A stretch of DNA of 64,000 bases from Planotetraspora phitsanulokensis. GTDB lineage: Bacteria; Actinomycetota; Actinomycetes; Streptosporangiales; Streptosporangiaceae. Of the stretch, positions 45,668 through 55,796 are shown in pieces (position 1 is the first letter of the stretch; every line of letters starts with the position of its first letter). The translations under genes were made by a program, and so were the position numbers. The stretch covers positions 124,001-188,000 of the forward strand of contig NZ_BOOP01000003.1 of the NCBI RefSeq assembly GCF_016863295.1, read 5' to 3'. The notes under the pieces were generated by a model. That model saw only the letters and a list, made by a program, of their open reading frames with translations. It did not search any database and was not told where the DNA came from.

Positions 45668-46405
45668 ATGAAGATCGCAGTCATCGGCGGGACCGGCCTC
45701 ATCGGCTCGCAGGTCGTCAGGAACCTCACCGCGGCCGGGCACGAGGCCGTGCCGTACTCGCTGTCCACGGGCGTGGACGTCATCACCGGCGCCGGCGTCG
45801 ACGACGCGGTGGCGGGCGCGGACGTCGTCGTCAACCTCACCAACTCCCCGACGTTCGACGACGCCTCCACTGCCTTCTTCCAGATCTCGATGGACAACCT
45901 CCTCACCGCGAGCGCGAAGGCCGGCGTCGGGCACTTCGTCATCCTGTCCATCGTCGGCGTCGACCAGGTTCCCGACCTCGTCTACTACCGGGCGAAGATG
46001 CTGCAGGAGGACCTGCTGCGGGCGGGAACCGTCCCGTTCTCGATCGTCCGCGCCACCCAGTTCATGGAGTTCGTGGACGCGACCATGTCCTGGACCACCG
46101 AGGACGACGTCGTGCGCCTGCCGCAGACGCCGATTCAGCCGATCGCCGCCGCGGACGTCGCCGCCGCGGTCTCGGAGGTCGCCGCCGGCGCACCCCTGAA
46201 CGGCGTCCGCAACATCGCCGGACCCGACGTCCTCCCCCTCGACGAGCTCGGCAGGATCACCCTGAAGGCCAAGGGCGACAGCCGTGTCGTCGTCACCGAC
46301 GGCACCGCAGGCCTGTTCGCCGCGATCAAGGGCGACGTGATCATCGCCCCGGCGGACGCCGTCATCGCCCCCACCCACTACGCGGACTGGCTCGCGGCCG
46401 GCTGA
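45668..46405 (+). CDS. NmrA-like NAD(P)-binding protein, Rrf2-controlled
   Basis: A 245-residue atypical SDR. GGTGLIGSQVV (about 8-18) is the NAD(P) loop, VVNLTNSPTFDD marks the cofactor/substrate pocket and FSIVRATQFMEFV is typical of the NmrA/azoreductase-like group. The short-chain Tyr/Lys pair is only loosely kept (VYYRAKMLQE). GAAAGG precedes the ATG. A close paralogue is encoded at 51094-51843 (shared GGTGLIGS, STGV, NSPxF, FSIVxATQFxEFV). The two copies have different promoters. Confidence 0.87.
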   Translation: MKIAVIGGTGLIGSQVVRNLTAAGHEAVPYSLSTGVDVITGAGVDDAVAGADVVVNLTNSPTFDDASTAFFQISMDNLLTASAKAGVGHFVILSIVGVDQVPDLVYYRAKMLQEDLLRAGTVPFSIVRATQFMEFVDATMSWTTEDDVVRLPQTPIQPIAAADVAAAVSEVAAGAPLNGVRNIAGPDVLPLDELGRITLKAKGDSRVVVTDGTAGLFAAIKGDVIIAPADAVIAPTHYADWLAAG

Positions 46406-46923
46406 ACCATCCGGCTTCCGTCCATGCCCGGATGACCGTCAGCGGCGAGGCTGACGGTGGCGGCGATGCCCTGGCGGGTCATCTTCGTGTAGGGGCACAG
46501 CGCGCTCACCTGTGCGAGCAGCGGGGCGGCCGACTCGCGCTCGACTCCAGGCCAGATCACGACGAGGCCGGCCGTCAACCGGTACCCGCCGTCGTCCGGG
46601 TCGCGGCCGAAGGCGACGGCCGCCTCCACGACAATGGAGCCGGGGTCGAGGAGATGACGCCGCGCCACCAGGCTGAGGGCGCCGTGGAAGCAGGCCGCGT
46701 ATCCGGCGGCGAAGAGCTATTCGGGATTCGGGCCCGAGGTGTCGCCGCCCAGTTCTCCGGGCATCCGCAGGTCCACGTCGAGGGCGCCGTCGGCGGAGCG
46801 GGCTCTGCCGACGGCACGGCCATGGGCGGAGCTGCCGCCGCTGACCGCGACGTGAGTCATGTAGATCGGTTTGAACGCGATGCCGCTGTCCTCGTTATCC
46901 GAGGACGGTATCGAGTCGTTCAC
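46378..46923 (-). pseudogene. OsmC/Ohr-family hydroperoxide reductase, broken by an amber codon
   Basis: The full reading frame fits an organic hydroperoxide resistance protein: PIYMTHVAVSGG, DLRMPGELGG, NPE-stop-LFAAGYAACFHGAL, then LCPYTKMTRQGIAATVSL. Both catalytic cysteines (AACF and CPYT) are present. One TAG (complement of 46717-46719) replaces what is almost certainly a CAG Gln in NPEQLFAAGYAACF. Upstream and downstream parts are otherwise intact and in one frame. The 3' end runs 28 bases into the convergent NmrA-like gene. Either a pseudogene or a sequencing error; no selenocysteine/pyrrolysine context is expected at TAG here. Confidence 0.8.
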
Positions 46924-46978
46924 CGGCCGGCCCTTTCCATGTCGAGGCGACGAGGAGGCTGTGGCAGGGACGGGTCGG

Positions 46979-47701
46979 TCATCGGCGATGCCAGACATGC
47001 AACTTGTCGGGGTTCAGCACGATCCACACAGCGGTGACCTCGGCCCCGGCGACGCTCACGCTGACCACCGCCACCGCCTGGCCCGCCCGGCGCAGCACCA
47101 GCCCTGTACGGCCGTTGACCGACTCGACGGTCACCTGCGTGCCGGGCGGACCGACCAGCAGCTTCGCGACGAATCGCGCCGCCGCGTCCGCGCCGTGGGT
47201 CGGGCGCACCGAGGCGCGCAACTTGCCGCCGCCGTCGCTCACGACCAGTGCGTCGGCGGCCAGCACCGCCTTCAGCGCCGCCACGTCGCCTGCCCCGCAC
47301 GCCGCCGCGAACCGGCGCGCGACCCGATCGTGCCTGTCGAGCATCGCCTTCCGAGGCCCTGGCTGCCCGGAGGGCTGCGGCGCCGCGTCGGCACGGCGAG
47401 CCGGGCCGGTGGCGACGGGAGCAGGCGCCGAGCCTCGCTCCGGTGCGGTGCCGGAAGGCCGGAACACGTCAGGAGTGGAGAGCATTTCCAGGCAGATCCC
47501 CCCGGCGACCCTGGCCAGCCAGGCTCGCGGCACGGCGATGCCGGCCCGCTCCTCATCGTCGAGGGCGTACCACCGGCGATAGGTCTCCTGGACGATCCGG
47601 TCGGCCGTCGCGGCCGAGCCGAACATCCACAGGGCGATCTCGAGCAGGTGCTGCCGTTCGTCGAGCATCTCCGCCAGCGACCCGGCGCCCGTCTCGGTCA
47701 T
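46979..47701 (-). CDS. ECF41-like sigma factor lacking region 4
   Basis: A 240-residue protein. The N-terminus resembles sigma region 2 (HLLEIALWMFGSAATADRIVQETYRRWYAL). The C-terminus is the SnoaL-like domain of ECF41 sigma factors, with the hallmark DGGGK (about 157-161) and NPDKL near the end. The sigma region 4 helix-turn-helix and the WLPEP linker motif are absent; a Pro/Ala-rich linker joins the two parts. It may be a non-promoter-binding regulator or a decayed sigma factor. A promoter of the ECF41 type lies 150 bases upstream. Confidence 0.75.
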   Translation of the reverse strand: MTETGAGSLAEMLDERQHLLEIALWMFGSAATADRIVQETYRRWYALDDEERAGIAVPRAWLARVAGGICLEMLSTPDVFRPSGTAPERGSAPAPVATGPARRADAAPQPSGQPGPRKAMLDRHDRVARRFAAACGAGDVAALKAVLAADALVVSDGGGKLRASVRPTHGADAAARFVAKLLVGPPGTQVTVESVNGRTGLVLRRAGQAVAVVSVSVAGAEVTAVWIVLNPDKLHVWHRR

Positions 47702-47851: not shown

Positions 47852-47881
47852 CTAAGACCGGACAGGGCGTCCTGTTGTGAC
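47852..47881 (-). promoter_or_regulatory. ECF41-type promoter variant before the sigma-like gene
   Basis: On the minus strand CGTCACA (complement of 47875-47881), 16 bases, then GGTCTTA (complement of 47852-47858). It differs by one base in each box from the other three sites in this window. It faces the region-4-less sigma gene at 47701. Confidence 0.5.
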
Positions 47882-48292
47882 GGCCCCGGGATGCCCACGG
47901 CGGGCGGCCGTGCCGGGCGCTCGGATGGACGCGCCCACCGGTGATGCCGCACGGTGGGGCCGCGGCCAGACGTGTCGACGTACCCGGGCGCGTGATCGCT
48001 TCGCCTCGACCGACGTGAGCTCGGCCTCGCCCCAGAACCGGGGCGCGTACGCGGCGACGAACCTCGCCACGCGCGTGCCGCCCAGTAGGGGAAACCGTGC
48101 GGCTCCCCTGATTCCGCCTCCGTCGGAGGAGCTGACGACGTCCTCGGCGAACAGGGACTCAAGGGCCGCGACGTTCCCCGTCTGGGCGGCGGAGAGGAAG
48201 ACCTCCAGCAGCCGTCGATGTTCGGCCTTGTCGACGGGTCCGGGCAGCCAGGGCCCTATGTAGGCTTCGCGCCGCGCGCGGGCGGATTGGGC
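47882..48292 (-). pseudogene. ECF41 sigma factor remnant with internal deletion
   Basis: Reading the complement from 48289 gives QSARARREAYIGPWLPGPV, the linker that follows sigma region 2 in ECF41/SigJ proteins with the WLPEP motif. It then goes directly to DKAEHRRLLEVFLSAAQTGN, the start of the SnoaL-like domain, followed by SSSDGGGI and VARFVAAYAPRFW. Sigma region 4, normally between the two, is missing, and region 2 is lost upstream. The frame degenerates after VEAKRSRAR and runs on, without family similarity, to a stop at 47852. The remnant begins inside the 3' end of the ferritin-like gene in another frame. Confidence 0.65.
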
Positions 48293-50139
48293 GACGTTTC
48301 TCCCTTTCCAGGGATCGAGGGGGCCTTTTCACCGGGTGCCGCATGGACGGCGGGCGGGGAGCCTTGCCGGTCGGCCGCCGGCGCCTCCTCGCGGAAGCCG
48401 ATCTTCCGGTGGGTCCCGTCGCACAGCGGTTTGTTGCCGGACTGGCCGCAGCGGCACAGGGTCACCCTGTTGCGGGTCTCCAGCGGCCGGCCGTCCGACC
48501 GCAGGACCGGCACCCCGCCGGTGACCCACAGCGCACTGGCCAGCCCGTCCTCCTCCTCCAGGACCGAGACGGCCCGGGGGAGGTCGGGCTCGAGCGTGTC
48601 GCCGCCGCGTTCGAGGGCATAGCTGTACGACCCCGAGGGACAGTGGTCGATGCGGCCCATGACGTCGGAGCGCACGTCACTGTCGCCGGTGTCGGCGAGC
48701 ATCTCGGCGATCGGCCTCGTGCGTCCGATGCAGAAGGCGGCGTGGACGCACAGCTCCCCCACCCGCTGGGCGGAGATCCCCACACCGTCGTGCACGTGCT
48801 GCAGTTCCCTGTACGGCTGCTCGCCCGCGGTCTCCGTGCCGTCGAACCCGATCGCCGCGTGGGTCCCGTCGCAGAACGGCTTGGTGCCCGAGTGGCCGCA
48901 GCGGCACAGCGCGTAGATGTCCTCGGTCTCCAGAGGTTCGCCGGTCTTCCACGTCAGCGCGTTGTTCTCCGCCGAGACGATCTTGGTTTTGCGCCGGAGC
49001 GGGACACCTCCGAACACGATGTAGGGGCCGTTGCGGAGGACGACGATCCGCTGCTCGTCTCCGGCGCCCCACCGGCGCAGCTCGGGTTCGACGTACTCGA
49101 AGGTGGGGCCGGCCGTCGTGCCGTCTTCGTCGGGCATCCGCACCAGCGCCTGGGCCTGGGCCTTGAGCTGGAACATGGTGGCGACGGCGACCCGCAGCAG
49201 CTTCGGGCTGCCGTTGAACGCCTGCTCGAGCAGATGCAGGATGTCGCAGTAGGTGTGGTTGAACTCCTCCTGGGCCGTGCGGATCGCGCTGCCTGGGGCA
49301 TGGTCGGCCAGCCGCGGGTTGCGTCTCATCGGACGGACACCGGCGAGATCCACGGAGATCGCCTCGCCGGTGGGGCCGGACTGCGGGGTGTCGCCGCGCT
49401 GGTACCGCCGGCCGATTCTGAGTTCCTGGAACCGGTAGTAGTGCCCCACCTCGGCCCGATCGGGATGGAAGACGTCCTGGTCGCCGTCCCAGACTTCGCC
49501 GCGGGACGTGCCCTCGCCCTGCTCGACGATCTCCTCCAGCGCCGCCAGCGCCGAGGCCAGATCCGTGACCGCGACCAGCTTCCCGGCGGTGTGCCGGAAG
49601 CGGGCGGCGTTCACCTGGCGGGCCGGATCGCCGCTGAAGACCTTCTCCTCGCCGAGCCGGTCGCACAGGTGGCGTAATCCCTGTTCGATGGCGTCGTAGA
49701 ACTGCCCGATCGTCTCGTACTCGTCGCCCTCCGGCGCGGCGCCGGGCGGCGCCGGCCGTTCGATCCGGAGGAACATGTCGAGGGCCTCGGCGCCGAACGG
49801 AAGCAGCGACAGTTCCAGGGACCGGTCGCCGTGGGGCAGTGGCCGGGGATGCGGCGGCAACATCCGCCGCGGGTCCAGTCGCGGGGTGCCGCCGACGGCG
49901 TTGAGCAGGTTCGCCGCCAGCGTCAGGTGCAACATCTCTTCGGAGAAGACGCTGCTCACCACGTCGACGGCTTCGGGGTTTCGCTCCGGGTCGAGCGAGT
50001 ACAGCGCGCACAGGTAGGGCGGCAGGGTCGCGTGTTCCAGCTCGATCGCCCACTGCAGGTGCTCGCGCAGGCTGTCGATTGTGTCGATCCGCGCCGGTGG
50101 GCCGGGAGCGGGGGGCCTTTGCGGCTCTTCTTGTCTCAT
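48256..50139 (-). CDS. Ferritin-like / dual CDGSH iron-sulfur fusion protein
   Basis: A 627-residue protein. The N-terminal part (about 15-300) is a ferritin-like domain of the VioB/RebD-associated type, with ELEHATLPPYLCALYSL and FSEEMLHLTLAANLLNAVGG as helix-bundle metal ligands. Two CDGSH domains follow: CRCGHSGTKPFCDGTH (about 411-426) and CRCGQSGNKPLCDGTH (about 562-577), each binding 2Fe-2S with three Cys and one His. Between them, CVHAAFC and DHCPSGSYSY resemble a divergent mono-cluster ferredoxin (Fer4_19). The last 25 residues are low-complexity and read out of frame through the sigma remnant, so the native C-terminus was probably altered. Confidence 0.85.
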   Translation of the reverse strand: MRQEEPQRPPAPGPPARIDTIDSLREHLQWAIELEHATLPPYLCALYSLDPERNPEAVDVVSSVFSEEMLHLTLAANLLNAVGGTPRLDPRRMLPPHPRPLPHGDRSLELSLLPFGAEALDMFLRIERPAPPGAAPEGDEYETIGQFYDAIEQGLRHLCDRLGEEKVFSGDPARQVNAARFRHTAGKLVAVTDLASALAALEEIVEQGEGTSRGEVWDGDQDVFHPDRAEVGHYYRFQELRIGRRYQRGDTPQSGPTGEAISVDLAGVRPMRRNPRLADHAPGSAIRTAQEEFNHTYCDILHLLEQAFNGSPKLLRVAVATMFQLKAQAQALVRMPDEDGTTAGPTFEYVEPELRRWGAGDEQRIVVLRNGPYIVFGGVPLRRKTKIVSAENNALTWKTGEPLETEDIYALCRCGHSGTKPFCDGTHAAIGFDGTETAGEQPYRELQHVHDGVGISAQRVGELCVHAAFCIGRTRPIAEMLADTGDSDVRSDVMGRIDHCPSGSYSYALERGGDTLEPDLPRAVSVLEEEDGLASALWVTGGVPVLRSDGRPLETRNRVTLCRCGQSGNKPLCDGTHRKIGFREEAPAADRQGSPPAVHAAPGEKAPSIPGKGETSPNPPARGAKPT

Positions 50140-50215: not shown

Positions 50216-50446
50216 TCACGCGCGTGGCTCCTCTGGCCGGTGGTCGCCCTCCAGCGCCTCAACGGCCCCGAGCAGGCCCCGCAGGCCCATCTCCTCACGG
50301 TCGGCGTCCGCCGGATCGAACAGCCATTCCGTGACCGGCAGTTCGGCGGCCTCCTCAGAACGGCTCGTCTCGACCAGGGTCACTTCCTCCTCGACCTCGA
50401 TCTCGAGCTCGTACAGAAATCCGTTATCGCCGTTCGCGGCGTTCAT
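50216..50446 (-). CDS. Small acidic protein upstream of the ferritin-like gene
   Basis: A 76-residue, strongly acidic protein (LYELEIEVEEEVTLVE; WLFDPADADREEMGLRGLL). GGAGG four bases before the ATG makes translation convincing. It lies 76 bases before the ferritin-like gene on the same strand and after a cupin gene. No family is recognised and there is no cysteine. It may be a partner or chaperone of the iron protein. Confidence 0.65.
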   Translation of the reverse strand: MNAANGDNGFLYELEIEVEEEVTLVETSRSEEAAELPVTEWLFDPADADREEMGLRGLLGAVEALEGDHRPEEPRA

Positions 50447-50565: not shown

Positions 50566-51003
50566 TCAGGACGGGCGAGGAGCGCGGCGGTCCGTGCGCT
50601 GGGCCAGCTCCTCGTCGGCCACCAGGGTGAGCATCGGCTGGCCGGGTTCGCACATCATCGTGACGGTGAAACGGAGCGGGACGTCGTCACGGTTGTTGCC
50701 GTCCTGGTAGTGGATGACGTCACCGCCCGGCTCCCAGAACGCCTCCCCGGCGTGGACGACCCGTTCCGGATCGCCCTCCACCTCCAGCAGCATCTCGCCT
50801 TCCACCACGAAGCCGAACGCCGGTCCCGAGTGCCGGTGCGGCGGGGTGCCGGGGTCGCCGGGCGGGTACTCGACGACCACGGTCATGACGTGGACGCCCT
50901 CCGGGATGAACGGCGGTTCGGCCTCCTGCAGCACGGTGAGCGCGGTCTTCCACGCGTCCGATCTCGGCGTGCGCCCGCCGGTCGCGGGGTCGATGTCAGC
51001 CAT
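50566..51003 (-). CDS. Cupin-domain protein
   Basis: A 145-residue single cupin. PPHRHSGPAFGFVVEGEMLLEVEG carries the first motif (two His and the later Glu position), and GEAFWEPGGDVIHYQDGNNRDD the second with its His. It can probably bind a metal. AAAGGTGG precedes the ATG. It shares strand and spacing with the small acidic protein and the ferritin-like gene, so one operon is likely. Small cupins near ECF41 promoters are often linked to oxidative chemistry; the substrate is unknown. Confidence 0.83.
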   Translation of the reverse strand: MADIDPATGGRTPRSDAWKTALTVLQEAEPPFIPEGVHVMTVVVEYPPGDPGTPPHRHSGPAFGFVVEGEMLLEVEGDPERVVHAGEAFWEPGGDVIHYQDGNNRDDVPLRFTVTMMCEPGQPMLTLVADEELAQRTDRRAPRPS

Positions 51004-51047: not shown

Positions 51048-51104
51048 GGCCGCGTCACCATCCGGCCGCGTCGCTCTCCGGGCCGCGTTACTTTCAGGCC
51101 GCGT
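51048..51104. repeat. Four-copy short tandem repeat, 16-17 base period
   Basis: GGCCGCGT recurs at 51048, 51064, 51081 and 51097 with variable eight- to nine-base spacers (for example CACCATCC, CGCTCTCC). The last copy lies in the final codons of the NmrA-like gene; the others are in the gap before the cupin gene. Confidence 0.6.
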
Positions 51105-51843
51105 TCCGGGCCGCCCAGTCGCGGTATCGGATCTGGCCGAGGGTGGCGTCGTCGCCCGGCACCAGCGAGCGGTCATCCAGCTCGGCTCCGAAGTAGCGCG
51201 CGTGCGGGTCGGCGACGACCACACGCGGGTCGCCCAAGGCGGCCAGGGCGTCGCGGAAGAACTCGTCCATGCGGGACTGCTCGGGTCCGGCGATCTCGAT
51301 CCGGCCGTTCAGCGGTCGCCCCACCGAAACCCTGCCGACCGCCTGGGCGACCTCGTCACCCGCCATGGGCTGGAACCGCACGGGCGCGATCCGCACCTCG
51401 TTTCCGTCGGTGGCCGAGTCGGCGATGCTCCGGACGAACTCGAAGAACTGGGTGGCGTGGACGATCGAGAACGGAATGGACGACTTCTCGATCAGATTCT
51501 CCTGCGCGACCTTCGCACGGAAGTAGTCGCTCCCGGGCAGCCGCTCCGTTCCCACCACCGACAGCGCGACGTGGTGACTGACGCCGGCGGCCGCCTCGGC
51601 GGCGAGCAGGTTGCGCGTGGAGGTCTCGAAGAACTCCAGCACCGCGTCGCCCACGAAGACGGGGGAGTTCGACACGTCGATCACCACCGCCGCGCCCGCC
51701 AGCGCCTCGGCCAGCCCCTCCCCCGTGAGAGTGTTCACACCGGTGCTCGGCGCCGCCGCCAGCAGCTCGTGACCCTGCTCTCCCAGATTGGCCACCAGCT
51801 TCGACCCGATCAGACCGGTGCCGCCGACTACCACGATCTTCAT
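51094..51843 (-). CDS. NmrA-like NAD(P)-binding protein with ECF41-type promoter
   Basis: A 249-residue atypical SDR, paralogous to the product of 45668-46405: GGTGLIGSKLV (about 8-18), STGVNTLTGEGL, SNSPVFVGDAVLEFFE and FSIVHATQFFEFV. Such epimerase/reductase-like proteins form one of the three classes (carboxymuconolactone decarboxylase, oxidoreductase, epimerase) typically encoded beside ECF41 sigma factors. AAAGG precedes the ATG. A TGTCACA-N16-TGTCTTA promoter lies 49-78 bases upstream. Reading further upstream has no coding character. Confidence 0.87.
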   Translation of the reverse strand: MKIVVVGGTGLIGSKLVANLGEQGHELLAAAPSTGVNTLTGEGLAEALAGAAVVIDVSNSPVFVGDAVLEFFETSTRNLLAAEAAAGVSHHVALSVVGTERLPGSDYFRAKVAQENLIEKSSIPFSIVHATQFFEFVRSIADSATDGNEVRIAPVRFQPMAGDEVAQAVGRVSVGRPLNGRIEIAGPEQSRMDEFFRDALAALGDPRVVVADPHARYFGAELDDRSLVPGDDATLGQIRYRDWAARNAA

Positions 51844-51891: not shown

Positions 51892-51921
51892 TAAGACAGG
51901 ACAGCCTCCGGGCTTGTGACA
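51892..51921 (-). promoter_or_regulatory. ECF41-type promoter of the NmrA-like gene
   Basis: On the minus strand TGTCACA (complement of 51915-51921), 16 bases, then TGTCTTA (complement of 51892-51898). The ECF41 group recognises TGTCACA at -35 with a CGTC-like -10; spacing and sequence fit. The gene starts at 51843. Confidence 0.75.
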
Positions 51922-52187
51922 GCCGTCGTGAACTTCTTTGCCGCTTCGCTGACGTCCGGGCCGGAAGACCATGCGATCTTCTGGCCGCCGGAGTGACATC
52001 CCGGTCAGCGGCGCGACCTGAGGCAGCCTCGTCGGCCGGGCGCCGGTCCCGCGAGGAGCGACCCGCCCCGTGAGGAATGTCACAAATCGTGCCGCTATGG
52101 GTTGTTTTCCCGGAATCGCTTTCGGCCATGCGGCCAAAGGGGGCGCCATGAGCTCGCCAGAAGAGGCCCATGGCTTCCCTCGAGGGA
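51922..52187. other. Gap between the ECF41-type promoter and the LtrA gene end
   Basis: About 266 bases without a supportable gene. TGTCACA occurs at 52078-52084 on the plus strand, but GTTG stands where the -10 TGTC should be, so it is not counted as a promoter. No terminator hairpin is obvious. Confidence 0.4.
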
Positions 52188-53441
52188 TCAGGGCTGAGGT
52201 TCGGCCTCGCGCGGACCCGGCTCCTCGACCGCTCTCCGGATCGTGGAGATCACGGGCCAGGATGACGCGCCCCCGCGCCGGCCCCGATCCGTGCCGGCCG
52301 CGATCGTGGCGGCGAGCAGGAGGACGCAGATGGCCGTGACCGCCGCCACGACGGCTGCCACACCGACCCGGGGCGCCGCGAGGGGCAGCAGCAGAATGAG
52401 GATGGAGCTGCCCAGAACCGCCGAGGGACGCATGGCGGGTTCCGCGACGACGAGCGCGTGGACCGCCCACAGCAGAACGAGGCAGACGCCGACGGGGATG
52501 GCGACGGCATAGCCGGACGCCATCGGTGACGCCCCCACCTGGTGCCCACTCTGCTCCACCGCCACTTCCAGCCCGGCGCCGAGGGCCGCCAGTGCCGCGA
52601 AGATGCCGTAGTGGCCGTATCCCCACAGGTAGGACCGGTGGCGGCGGTCGCTGAGCCCCTCTCCGGCCTCCACGAGGAAGTACAGCCACCAAAGAGAGAA
52701 CAACAGGACGAGGCCGGAGACGGCGACGACGATGAAGGGACTGCTGATGTCACCCGCTTCGAGCGCTCTGCCGACTCCCCTGCTCGCGGCCAGGACACTC
52801 TCACCGAGCAGGATGATCGTGAAAAGGCCGTAGCGCTCGGCGATGTGGTGCGGGTGCCAGGTGGTGGCCAGGGCCTTCTCCGCCCACCACGGCACCGCGA
52901 GTTCCGCGGCCGCGAGACAGACGAAGGACAGCGGTTCCAACCACGGGGGCAGGACGCCCGCGTCCGTGACGAGGAACCGGAGAATCCACCAGATCTGCAG
53001 GATGCCGATGCCTGCGGCGTAGCGCAGCGCGGTGCGACGGCGCACCGGATCTTCGAGGCCCGCCCGCACCCACTGGGCGACGAGCGCCAGCCTCATGACG
53101 AGATAGCCCAGCGTGACGACCTTGAAGTCGCCGGTACTGGCCGCCAGCGGCACCCCTGCCGCGAGCACCAGCACACCGGCCATCTGCACCATGGTCAGCA
53201 GCCGGTAGGCGACGTCGTCGGTGTCGTAGGACGAGGCGAACCAGGTGAAGTTCATCCACGCCCACCAGATCGCGAAGAACACCTGGAGGAACGGGACCAG
53301 CCCGGTGAGGCCGTGATCCTCGGCGATGTCGTGCGCGAGTTCGGCGGTGACGGCGGCGACCGCGACCACGAACGTGAGATCGAACAGGAGCTCCAGCTGA
53401 CTCGAAACGCGGTGCGGCTCGTCGATGGGACGAGCGCTCAT
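52188..53441 (-). CDS. Low-temperature-requirement A (LtrA) family membrane protein
   Basis: A 417-residue polytopic protein with about eleven helices. The opening RVSSQLELLFDLTFVVAVAAVTAELAHDI and the motifs FFAIWWAWMNFTWFASSYDTDDV, HHIAERYGLFTIILLGESVLA and GYGHYGIFAALAALGAG are typical of LtrA. The family is widespread; its role is unclear beyond a Listeria cold-growth phenotype. The ATG at 53441 starts just before the family block. An ECF41-type promoter lies 76-105 bases upstream, so it probably belongs to the same regulon. Confidence 0.88.
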   Translation of the reverse strand: MSARPIDEPHRVSSQLELLFDLTFVVAVAAVTAELAHDIAEDHGLTGLVPFLQVFFAIWWAWMNFTWFASSYDTDDVAYRLLTMVQMAGVLVLAAGVPLAASTGDFKVVTLGYLVMRLALVAQWVRAGLEDPVRRRTALRYAAGIGILQIWWILRFLVTDAGVLPPWLEPLSFVCLAAAELAVPWWAEKALATTWHPHHIAERYGLFTIILLGESVLAASRGVGRALEAGDISSPFIVVAVSGLVLLFSLWWLYFLVEAGEGLSDRRHRSYLWGYGHYGIFAALAALGAGLEVAVEQSGHQVGASPMASGYAVAIPVGVCLVLLWAVHALVVAEPAMRPSAVLGSSILILLLPLAAPRVGVAAVVAAVTAICVLLLAATIAAGTDRGRRGGASSWPVISTIRRAVEEPGPREAEPQP

Positions 53442-53516
53442 CCGGACTCGGATCCGGCCCGTCGTGCTGGCTGGTGGCAAGGTCTGTCTCCTGTCGTCTC
53501 GTGACTCCGTCCCGTC

Positions 53517-53546
53517 TGAGACAGCGCAGCCCCCCGATCTGTGACA
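53517..53546 (-). promoter_or_regulatory. ECF41-type promoter of the LtrA gene
   Basis: On the minus strand TGTCACA (complement of 53540-53546), 16 bases, then TGTCTCA (complement of 53517-53523). It has the same -35 and spacing as the sites at 51892 and 53590, and is back-to-back with the plus-strand site 44 bases away. Confidence 0.75.
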
Positions 53547-53589
53547 GCGCGGAGCCGCGAGACGCAAGAGAAGCATTTTTCCGGGGAGC

Positions 53590-53619
53590 TGTCACAGGCC
53601 GCGACGCTGTCCTGTCATA
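53590..53619 (+). promoter_or_regulatory. ECF41-type promoter of the histidine kinase pair
   Basis: TGTCACA (53590-53596), 16 bases (53597-53612), TGTCATA (53613-53619). It points toward the two histidine kinase genes. An ATG at 53632 lies close enough for a leaderless start, but the better ribosome site is before GTG 53839. Confidence 0.75.
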
Positions 53620-53838: not shown

Positions 53839-54666
53839 GTGACGGCATTCCCTACGCCCCCATACGACTTCAAGGCTTCCCACCCCTCCTCCCAAGGCCG
53901 AGATACCCCGGCGATTCAGAACCCCGGTGACAGGACGTACGAGTTGAAACGCGAGCTGGAGGTGAAACAGCGGTTCGCCTCCGACGCCTCGCATGAGCTG
54001 CGCACGGCGGTCGCGGGGTTGCGGACGGAACTGGAGGAGGCACGCCTGCATCCCGATGAGACCGATCTCGGCGACCTGATCGGCCGGGCGCTGAGCGACG
54101 TCGCCCGGTTGGACGCGATCATCACCGACCTGCTCGTTCTCGCCGGGATGGAAGCCGGCCCTCCTCTGCGGCCACAGCGTGTCGACCTCGCCGAGATGGT
54201 CCGGGACGAGATCGCCCGCAGGACCGACCGCATTGACGTGCGACTTCGGCTGAACGCCGGGGTGACCGTCCAGGCCGTGCCGATCCGGATCAGCCGGCTG
54301 CTCACCAACCTGCTGGACAACGCCCAACGGCACGCCCGGCGTCTGGTCGAGGTCCAGGTGGGCACGGACGACGACCACGCCGTTCTGACGGTCACCGACG
54401 ACGGCGAGGGCGTCGCGGAAAGCGAACGGGAACGGATCTTCCAGCGCTTCACCCGGCTGACGGCCGCACGCCGCCTCGATCACACCGGCACCGGCCTGGG
54501 CCTGGCGATCGCCCGCGACATCGCCCATGCCCACATCGGCAGCCTGCACGCCGAGGAGTCGGAAACAGGCGGCGCACGCTTCGTCCTGCGGCTTCCGCTC
54601 GCGGGCGCGGCCGCTCCGGCCGTTCGAGGTACGGAGCGACCTCTGCACAGGGCGATGGATTCTTGA
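53839..54666 (+). CDS. Soluble histidine kinase without sensor domain
   Basis: A 275-residue kinase core. HisKA has FASDASHELRTAVAGL (His about residue 50; Ala replaces the usual Pro after HELRT). HATPase_c has LLTNLLDNAQRHA, VTDDGEGV, IFQRFTR and GTGLGLAIARDIAHAH. No transmembrane segment is visible, and only about 35 residues precede the HisKA domain. GGAAGGAG precedes GTG 53839. An in-frame ATG at 53632 would add 69 residues, but its codons lack the local GC bias. No response regulator is adjacent. An ECF41-type promoter drives it. Confidence 0.8.
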   Translation: MTAFPTPPYDFKASHPSSQGRDTPAIQNPGDRTYELKRELEVKQRFASDASHELRTAVAGLRTELEEARLHPDETDLGDLIGRALSDVARLDAIITDLLVLAGMEAGPPLRPQRVDLAEMVRDEIARRTDRIDVRLRLNAGVTVQAVPIRISRLLTNLLDNAQRHARRLVEVQVGTDDDHAVLTVTDDGEGVAESERERIFQRFTRLTAARRLDHTGTGLGLAIARDIAHAHIGSLHAEESETGGARFVLRLPLAGAAAPAVRGTERPLHRAMDS

Positions 54667-54689: not shown

Positions 54690-55796
54690 ATGAGACCGGA
54701 CCTCGACTACGCCGCCCTGTTCGCGGCCGTGCCGGGCCCCTGCCTGGCCATGACGCCGGACATGACCGTCGTGGCCGTCAACCAGGCCTATCTCGACGCC
54801 TGCGGACGCCGGCGGGAAGAGTTGCTGGGGCGGCACGTGCTCGACTCCTGCGCCCCCGACCACACCGATCCCGTCAGGCGTCGCGCGCTGCGGAACCTCG
54901 AGGCGTCGTTGCGCCGGGCCCGGGCCACCGGCAGACCCGACGTGATGGCGCCGCACAAGTGCTACATGCCCGGCGGCTCGCAGCCGTCAGAGGAACGCCG
55001 CTGGAGCACGATCAACTCTCCTGTGCTCGGCCCGGACGGGGCGGTCGTGCTGTTCGTCCACCGCATGGAGGACGTGTCCGCTTCCTCCCGGAGGATTGTG
55101 CCGGGCTTGAGCCCGCCAGACGCCTCCGGCGCCGAGCAGCTGCTGGATCGGCAGCGCCAGTTCGCCGCGGACGCCTCGCACGAGCTGCGCACGCCGCTCG
55201 CCGCGCTGCGGCTGCGGGTGGAGGAGGCGCAGCTCCACCCGGGCGACGTCGACCTGCCCGATCTGCTCGGCCATCTGACCGACGACCTCCACCGGCTGGA
55301 GAGCCTCATCGACGACCTGCTCCTGCTGGCCGCGCTCGAGGCCGACCTCGGCGGAAGGCTGGAGGAGGTGAATCTCACGAGCCTGGTGGAGACCGTGGCG
55401 GCCCGGTGGGCCGAGAGCTGTGACATTCGTCTGGATCTCGAGCCCGCGGTGACGGTGGAGGCCGCCTCCTGGCAGATCACCCGGCTGCTCGTCAATCTGC
55501 TCGACAACGCCCGGCGTCACGCGACGCGCAGGCTGAGGGTGGACCTGCGCCGCGACGGCGATCATGCGGAACTGGCCGTGGCCGACGACGGGCACGGTGT
55601 CCGCCCGGCCGACCGCGACCGCATCTTCCAGCGGTTCACACGCCTGGACACCGCCCGCAGCCGCGACCGCGGAGGCACCGGGCTGGGCCTGGCCATCGCC
55701 CGCGACATCGCCTCGGCCCACTGCGGCACCCTGCACGTCGAGGACTCCGCCGACGGAGGCGCGTGCTTCGTACTGCGCCTGCCTCTCGTCTCCTGA
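54690..55796 (+). CDS. Soluble PAS-domain histidine kinase, paralogue of the preceding one
   Basis: A 368-residue kinase. An N-terminal PAS domain (YAALFAAVPGPCLAMTPDMTVVAVNQAYLDACGR through about residue 135) is followed by HisKA (FAADASHELRTPLAALRLRVEEAQLHPGDVDL, His about 163) and HATPase_c (LLVNLLDNARRHATRRLRV, VADDGHGV, GGTGLGLAIARDIASAH). The kinase core is close to that of the upstream gene, including EEA-LHP-[DE]-DL after the H-box, so the two are duplicates. GAGGAAGAG precedes ATG 54690; a TTG at 54663 overlaps the upstream stop. No membrane segment and no adjacent response regulator. Confidence 0.85.
   Translation: MRPDLDYAALFAAVPGPCLAMTPDMTVVAVNQAYLDACGRRREELLGRHVLDSCAPDHTDPVRRRALRNLEASLRRARATGRPDVMAPHKCYMPGGSQPSEERRWSTINSPVLGPDGAVVLFVHRMEDVSASSRRIVPGLSPPDASGAEQLLDRQRQFAADASHELRTPLAALRLRVEEAQLHPGDVDLPDLLGHLTDDLHRLESLIDDLLLLAALEADLGGRLEEVNLTSLVETVAARWAESCDIRLDLEPAVTVEAASWQITRLLVNLLDNARRHATRRLRVDLRRDGDHAELAVADDGHGVRPADRDRIFQRFTRLDTARSRDRGGTGLGLAIARDIASAHCGTLHVEDSADGGACFVLRLPLVS

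Follow-up and report, generated by a model that had tools for sequence, protein, structure and literature searches.

Three sequences of the form TGTCACA-N16-TGTC, clustered in the genome of the soil actinomycete Planotetraspora phitsanulokensis, are best read, with a probability of roughly 0.7, as promoters of one clade of ECF41 sigma factors that would drive several operons, the clade member linked to these operons having decayed and a second member, on contig C32, acting on them in trans. A regulon of several operons, which appears well supported by sequence comparison, departs from the picture of a single target gene drawn for ECF41 sigma factors in the available part of PMC3426412.

Promoter sites and genes of the cluster

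The window, i.e. the whole stretch of 64,000 nucleotides that was analysed, contains the three sites at the coordinates and on the strands given in a preliminary description, each with TGTCACA, exactly 16 bases of spacer and TGTC, after which comes TTA, TCA or ATA. A fourth, variant site was recovered with one mismatch in each box as described, at coordinates one base away from those first given (47853-47882, not 47852-47881). Likewise, Pfam matches and gene positions bear out that the sites point at genes for an NmrA-like protein, an LtrA protein, two soluble histidine kinases and a sigma-like protein. The features are as follows, in positions of the window.

46378..46980 (limits approximate), minus strand: Ohr-like peroxiredoxin gene with an in-frame stop at 46717-46719
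46979..47701, minus strand: P0001, ECF41-derived, with a region 2-like part and a SnoaL domain, no region 4
47853..47882, minus strand: variant promoter, CGTCACA-N16-GGTCTTA, in front of P0001, the sigma-like gene without region 4
47989..48298, minus strand: ECF41 sigma gene relic, with three deletions when compared with the intact gene of P. kaengkrachanensis
48256..50139 (putative start), minus strand: ferritin-like and CDGSH iron-sulfur protein (Pfam PF12902 and PF09360)
50216..50446, minus strand: small acidic protein of 76 aa, between the cupin and ferritin/CDGSH genes
50566..51003, minus strand: Cupin_2 protein (Pfam PF07883)
51094..51843, minus strand: NmrA-like NAD(P)-binding protein (Pfam PF13460/PF05368)
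51892..51921, minus strand: ECF41-type promoter 1, TGTCACA-N16-TGTCTTA, upstream of the NmrA, cupin, small protein and ferritin/CDGSH genes
52188..53441 (putative start), minus strand: LtrA family membrane protein (Pfam PF06772, hydropathy)
53517..53546, minus strand: ECF41-type promoter 2, TGTCACA-N16-TGTCTCA, upstream of LtrA
53590..53619, plus strand: ECF41-type promoter 3, TGTCACA-N16-TGTCATA, upstream of two histidine kinases and divergent from promoter 2
53839..54666 (putative start), plus strand: HK1 histidine kinase, HisKA and HATPase
54690..55796, plus strand: HK2 histidine kinase, PAS, HisKA and HATPase

RNA polymerase carrying an ECF41 of the clade would read these promoters. The NmrA, cupin, small protein and ferritin/CDGSH genes would form a first operon, and further units would be LtrA, the two soluble kinases, and P0001 followed by the Ohr-type peroxiredoxin gene. 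A role of the regulon against oxidative or electrophile stress is a guess from the nature of these products (Ohr, CDGSH, ferritin-like, cupin, oxidoreductase). The 76-aa acidic protein has no Pfam or NCBIfam match; homologues of it occur in 18 of 68 loci of the ECF41 clade. The Ohr-type gene is interrupted by a TAG, which may be a sequencing error; open copies exist in P. mira, P. silvatica and P. thailandica, the P. mira homologue being recognised as Ohr (TIGR03561). A second NmrA-like gene (NmrA2, 45668-46405, plus strand), with an Rrf2 regulator next to it, lacks the motif in the window, and its P. thailandica homologue (L070:7736) has a perfect one, which appears to be a case of promoter gain or loss within Planotetraspora.

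Throughout the 95 contigs of the genome (9,165,987 bases, 9.17 Mb), the strict pattern TGTCACA-N16-TGTC matched three times, in each case inside the same 1.7 kb of the window, and the reversed pattern matched nowhere. When the window was shuffled 100 times, a mean of 0.01 and a maximum of one match were obtained. A looser pattern (N15-17, BGTC) recovered the same three window sites at an expectation of 0.31, three matches being reached in one of 100 shuffles. Because base composition alone predicts about one strict match per genome (about 1.0 genome-wide, 0.0002 per 1.73 kb), the improbable part is the clustering and not the genome-wide count; the notion of unusually many sites in the genome was dropped on this ground, and the strength of the case lies in clustering and conservation. 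A motif arising by chance was rejected on the basis of shuffles, reversed patterns and control loci. The real sites outnumber matches of reversed patterns and those in shuffled sequence; the comparison with shuffled sequence, put forward in the preliminary description as a possible refutation, did not refute the proposal.

Conservation of a longer motif and its tie to one ECF41 clade

In addition to the two boxes, the window sites have GCTGNCC in common just before the -10 box, which yields the longer motif TGTCACA-N8-GGCTGYCC-[T/G]GTC-TTA containing all three. With up to 3 mismatches, this motif has exactly five sites in the genome and none in reversed form, namely the three window sites, the variant and a site on contig C32 (C32:60264-60293). 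The -35 box reads TGTCACA at all three window sites, CGTCACA at the variant and TGTCACG at the C32 site, and the spacer is 16 bases long in all five, in line with the 16 +/- 1 of ECF41 promoters. The -10 box is TGTC in three sites and GGTC in the variant, thus of the NGTY type, the first C of the consensus being missing in all four.

Among 100 relatives the strict pattern proved noisy, matching in 59 genomes and in reversed form in 17; the statistics were therefore based on the longer motif. With up to 3 mismatches, the five Planotetraspora genomes together have 26 sites as against two reversed ones, and in 200 genomes of the family, searched with 2 mismatches, 129 sites in 62 genomes compare with two sites of the reversed pattern. 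P. mira, P. thailandica, P. silvatica and P. kaengkrachanensis all have the motif upstream of the same gene families, and the variant promoter has a counterpart in each of them. The boxes of promoter 1 are identical to those of the P. kaengkrachanensis homologue at 14 of 14 positions. Over eight regions and two species pairs, identity amounts to 135/140 in promoter boxes, 144/160 in spacers and 1192/1517 in flanks (boxes versus flanks, p=7e-9).

The sites of other genomes also stand before genes of the cluster type. Such a gene starts within 450 nt for 25 of the 30 family sites examined together with their loci, the exceptions being L197, L199, L203, L205 and L208. Of the 88 distinct sites in the collected loci, 77 are at most 450 nt from a cluster-type gene, two are far from one and nine lack a known gene; duplicates and sites with less than 400 nt downstream were left out of this count, and there is a bias in the set, many loci having been chosen for these very genes. 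The targets are NmrA (31), histidine kinase (14), the region-4-less sigma relative (9), LtrA (7), cupin (5), ECF41 (5), NmrA2 (3), the small protein (2) and ferritin/CDGSH (1). Planotetraspora contributes eight of the 14 kinase sites, and four other genera the remaining six. The median distance between motif and gene is 50 nt for NmrA, 79 nt for the kinase, 78 nt for LtrA, 59 nt for cupin and 150 nt for the sigma relative; in ECF41 genes the motif reaches into the longest reading frame (median -9 nt). At L071, L072 and L083 the motif is present with no recognised target gene behind it. The strict-pattern matches at L078-L082 are accompanied neither by the longer motif (4 mismatches) nor by a cluster-type gene of more than 40% identity.

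The full-length ECF41 proteins encoded beside the motif form a single clade in a tree, separate from the other ECF41s of this genome (L227, which is short, and identical rows were left out). Across the 200 genomes, motif and clade occur together in 49, the motif alone in 13, the clade alone in 13 and neither in 125 (p=1.4e-22). The corresponding numbers by genus, counted by hand, are 16, 10, 3 and 39 (p=1.9e-6). Both p-values are too small because the genomes are related, and some absences of the clade may be false since the search scored 11 candidates per genome. In terms of clade loci (68 from 69 matches, two of which share one locus), 45 of 68 hold a total of 66 motif sites and no reversed one, 23 hold none within about 8 kb, or less at contig ends, and NmrA is found near 40. 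By comparison, the 13 control loci with the 15 other ECF41-type genes of this genome lack the longer motif and show one weak NmrA match. Clade co-occurrence, this contrast of 45/68 with 0/13 loci and the recurrence of the same targets elsewhere support the proposal, already made in the preliminary description, of an ECF41 regulon that spans several operons and includes histidine kinases. Its designation as a local regulon is too narrow, since the fifth site, with TGTCACG, precedes an operon of kinase and ECF41 on another contig.

The genome holds many ECF41-type sigma factors together, 12 genes scoring above the cut-off of the SigJ model and four at 219-254 bits; besides the C32 gene there are thus 15 further ECF41-type genes, 11 of them above that cut-off. 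In the vicinity of three of these (L084 C3:310888, L085 C3:553906, L096 C37:83237) lie TGTCACA-N16-CGTC sites, whose spacers have GCT at the corresponding position. The first base of the -10 box may separate sub-clades of ECF41.

Sigma factor, sigma relative and kinases

In P. kaengkrachanensis, an intact ECF41 gene of the clade lies directly behind the ferritin/CDGSH gene and would thus belong to the operon of promoter 1, so that the sigma factor would be made from one of its own promoters in a positive loop. The corresponding gene in the window is a relic, leaving the window with no working ECF41: two blocks and about 30 nt of the gene end are retained, and the deletions have removed region 4, the greater part of region 2 and some sequence close to the end of the SnoaL portion. 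The relic groups with intact Planotetraspora ECF41 genes in the tree. The blocks that it retains show 85-90% identity to the intact gene, a level also seen in the flanks, and the loss may therefore have happened so recently that conservation in this one genome is no proof that the promoters are still in use. In P. mira and P. silvatica, the cluster is also devoid of a clade ECF41 and has kept its promoters. In these two species and in P. phitsanulokensis alike, the sole clade member found, with 11 candidates scored per genome, stands in the arrangement motif, kinase, ECF41.

The one full-length clade member found among the 11 candidates scored in this genome is the gene on C32 (L099:8434-9405), whose putative operon consists, in order, of the motif with its TGTCACG -35 box, a histidine kinase and ECF41. 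Its product matches region 2 (PF04542) and region 4 (PF08281) above the Pfam cut-off and SnoaL_2 with 26.4 bits, just below the cut-off of 27, and was taken to have the region 2, region 4 and SnoaL architecture. Moreover, it matches the SigJ and SigX4 models, both above cut-off (NF007214, 280 versus 271; TIGR02957, 334 versus 323), and contains the region 2 sequence of the clade, TTRLAIN..SAR.RREAY, which is absent from eight other ECF41s of the genome that were compared. Carboxymuconolactone decarboxylase, oxidoreductase and epimerase genes are missing from its immediate vicinity, the neighbour being the histidine kinase. This does not exclude it from ECF41, as such a partner is usual and not universal; about 30% of ECF41 genes are without one according to the available part of PMC3426412. 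Being the only clade member found here and having the motif on its own operon, the C32 ECF41 is the best candidate for action in trans, and the window promoters, their linked ECF41 having decayed, are most likely controlled by it.

The target of the variant promoter had been announced as a sigma-like protein; the promoter does lie upstream of this gene, and the product, P0001, lacks region 4 and cannot be a usual sigma factor. Pfam recognises a SnoaL domain in it and, at 20.9 bits and hence below the cut-off of 24, a region 2-like part, with no match to region 4. In P0001 and six aligned relatives, a variable linker takes the place where region 4 would be (6-78 residues in a wider set). A function as sigma factor was rejected given the missing region 4 in P0001 and its close relatives. 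A dead pseudogene was rejected in view of purifying selection: over six pairs from four Planotetraspora genomes, dN/dS is 0.09-0.15 for the region 2-like part, 0.19-0.49 for the SnoaL domain and 0.48-0.99 for the linker. P0001 is conserved and under selection and is not expected to act as a sigma factor.

Relatives of P0001 scoring at least 193 bits were found in 26 of the 200 genomes of the family, each of which also has a member of the ECF41 clade (13 candidates scored per genome), and 19 of the 26 lie within 3 kb of a clade ECF41; the count takes one place per genome and leaves out a full-length ECF41 of 191 bits (G002, C5) and all weaker matches. Among 79 loci from a genome collection, 46 encode region 2 and SnoaL without region 4, 14 SnoaL only, 17 a full ECF41, and two are unclear; the motif is present within 5 kb in 32, 14, two and one of these, respectively. 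Motif-bearing loci include those of Nonomuraea, Streptosporangium, Actinomadura, Actinoallomurus, Herbidospora and Kribbella. Some of the SnoaL-only cases are frameshifts (e.g. P. kaengkrachanensis) or reflect a better-scoring neighbouring frame (L382, L388). Kribbella (L375, L376, L378, L381) has stand-alone SnoaL proteins of ~120 aa that are related to P0001, with the motif ~2 kb upstream.

A structure model of P0001 (mean pLDDT 69, informative on fold class only) has SigJ (5xe7, the best) and SigG1 as nearest folds by E-value, at a TM-score of just 0.35. P0001 keeps the motifs SDGGGK and NPDKL and has lost the linker motif GPWLPEP; NPDKL is reported to be linked to the linker motif YVGPWLPEP in ECF41 (PMC7730460, available part). 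As P0001 keeps these motifs and lacks a GPWLPEP of its own, the linker of a full-length ECF41 might be its docking site in trans.

HK1 and HK2 each have the HisKA and HATPase_c domains of two-component sensor kinases and, by hydropathy, no transmembrane-like stretch. A receiver domain was not detected in any of 18 proteins scanned across 42.5-59.3 kb, and no cognate response regulator is adjacent. A role of the kinases in feedback on the regulon is plausible because a kinase adjoins ECF41 on C32. Beyond this, we tentatively consider, at rather long odds, a new signalling unit: an ECF41 would be the common target of a soluble kinase and a region-4-less, ECF41-derived SnoaL protein, and its promoters would drive the genes of all three partners. 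Docked on the linker that the full-length ECF41 carries, the SnoaL protein could be its detachable anti- or co-sigma subunit, and the kinase would bring in a signal without a neighbouring response regulator. The evolutionary trace of such a unit would lead from the full ECF41 via the region 2-SnoaL protein to the stand-alone SnoaL protein of ~120 aa (Kribbella and others), all with the same motif.

Instead of being served by the clade member on C32, the window promoters could, after loss of the linked sigma factor, be read by one or several ECF41s from outside the clade. The 15 further ECF41-type genes offer candidates for such cross-recognition, and the GCT shared by the CGTC sites near three of them points in the same direction; however, C and not T/G is the first -10 base of those sites, the 13 loci of these genes are devoid of the longer motif, and the operon of the clade member on C32 itself bears the motif, altered at one -35 base, which renders this alternative unlikely. 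It is very improbable that the motif acts mainly as an operator of another regulator, for instance an unlinked response regulator of the kinases, with the tandem CTGTCCTGTC as half-sites. A strongly conserved spacer half is unusual for a sigma promoter, and GGCTGYCC is almost as conserved as the boxes; the partner of the kinases would be encoded elsewhere, given the lack of a receiver domain in the scanned cluster genes. On the other hand, the motif goes along with the ECF41 clade from genome to genome, and it agrees in -35 box and spacing of 16 bases with the ECF41 promoter established by experiment in PMC3426412 (available part).

Least probable of all is a vestigial system, in which the promoters of this strain would be relics like the broken ECF41 and Ohr genes. 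The coincidence of an ECF41 relic and an interrupted Ohr gene in one cluster is opposed by the open state of the other cluster genes listed above, purifying selection on P0001 among species, the higher conservation of promoter boxes than of flanks, and the persistence of an intact clade ECF41. Control of several operons by one ECF41 clade, exerted here most likely from C32, is the preferred reading.

Relation to known systems

In the available part of PMC3426412 (Wecke et al. 2012), ECF41 is portrayed as a wide-spread group, found in 10 phyla, whose promoter is defined as TGTCACA-N16-CGTC, with a TGTT -10 box in B. licheniformis. A single target was seen in two bacteria and members generally control one; a genome-wide search yielded no conserved regulon members besides the partner and sigma genes. 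The preliminary description had likewise named TGTCACA with a CGTC-like -10 box and, as a rule, one neighbouring target gene. Cupin genes lie beside four ECF41 genes in the same source, and Bacillus subtilis is listed there as having no ECF41. A regulon of the present kind was not found described in the ECF41 literature searched, which extends neither to the newest ECF classification nor to an Azospirillum ECF41 study, either of which could describe larger regulons.

SigJ and SigI of Mycobacterium tuberculosis, both ECF41, share the domain plan of the C32 gene, and SigJ regulates another gene, sigI; the available parts of PMC8999054, PMC7730460 and PMC4821874 describe no such gene cluster or motif spacer for them. 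The EcfG/PhyR/NepR system, as outlined in the available part of PMC8999054, also links a histidine kinase to an ECF sigma factor, and its protein resembling a sigma factor is a mere parallel to P0001: unlike there, no receiver domain occurs in the scanned cluster genes, and the sigma-like protein is derived from ECF41 and bears SnoaL.

Conserved across several genera of the family, the regulon offers a genetic system for tests of the signal, of SnoaL function and of the link to the kinases; the region-4-less sigma relative, which is under selection, is a candidate second protein, of which the current ECF41 model has none. The system shares with the ECF41 of PMC3426412 (available part) the TGTCACA -35 box, the 16-base spacer, a -10 box of the NGTC type, a partner gene of the NmrA/epimerase type, the C-terminal extension, the GPWLPEP linker and the lack of an anti-sigma gene. 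It differs from the ECF41 described there in its several operons, in targets that include histidine kinases, LtrA and ferritin/CDGSH, in T/G instead of C as the first -10 base, in the conserved spacer half and, for this genome, in the loss of the linked sigma gene.
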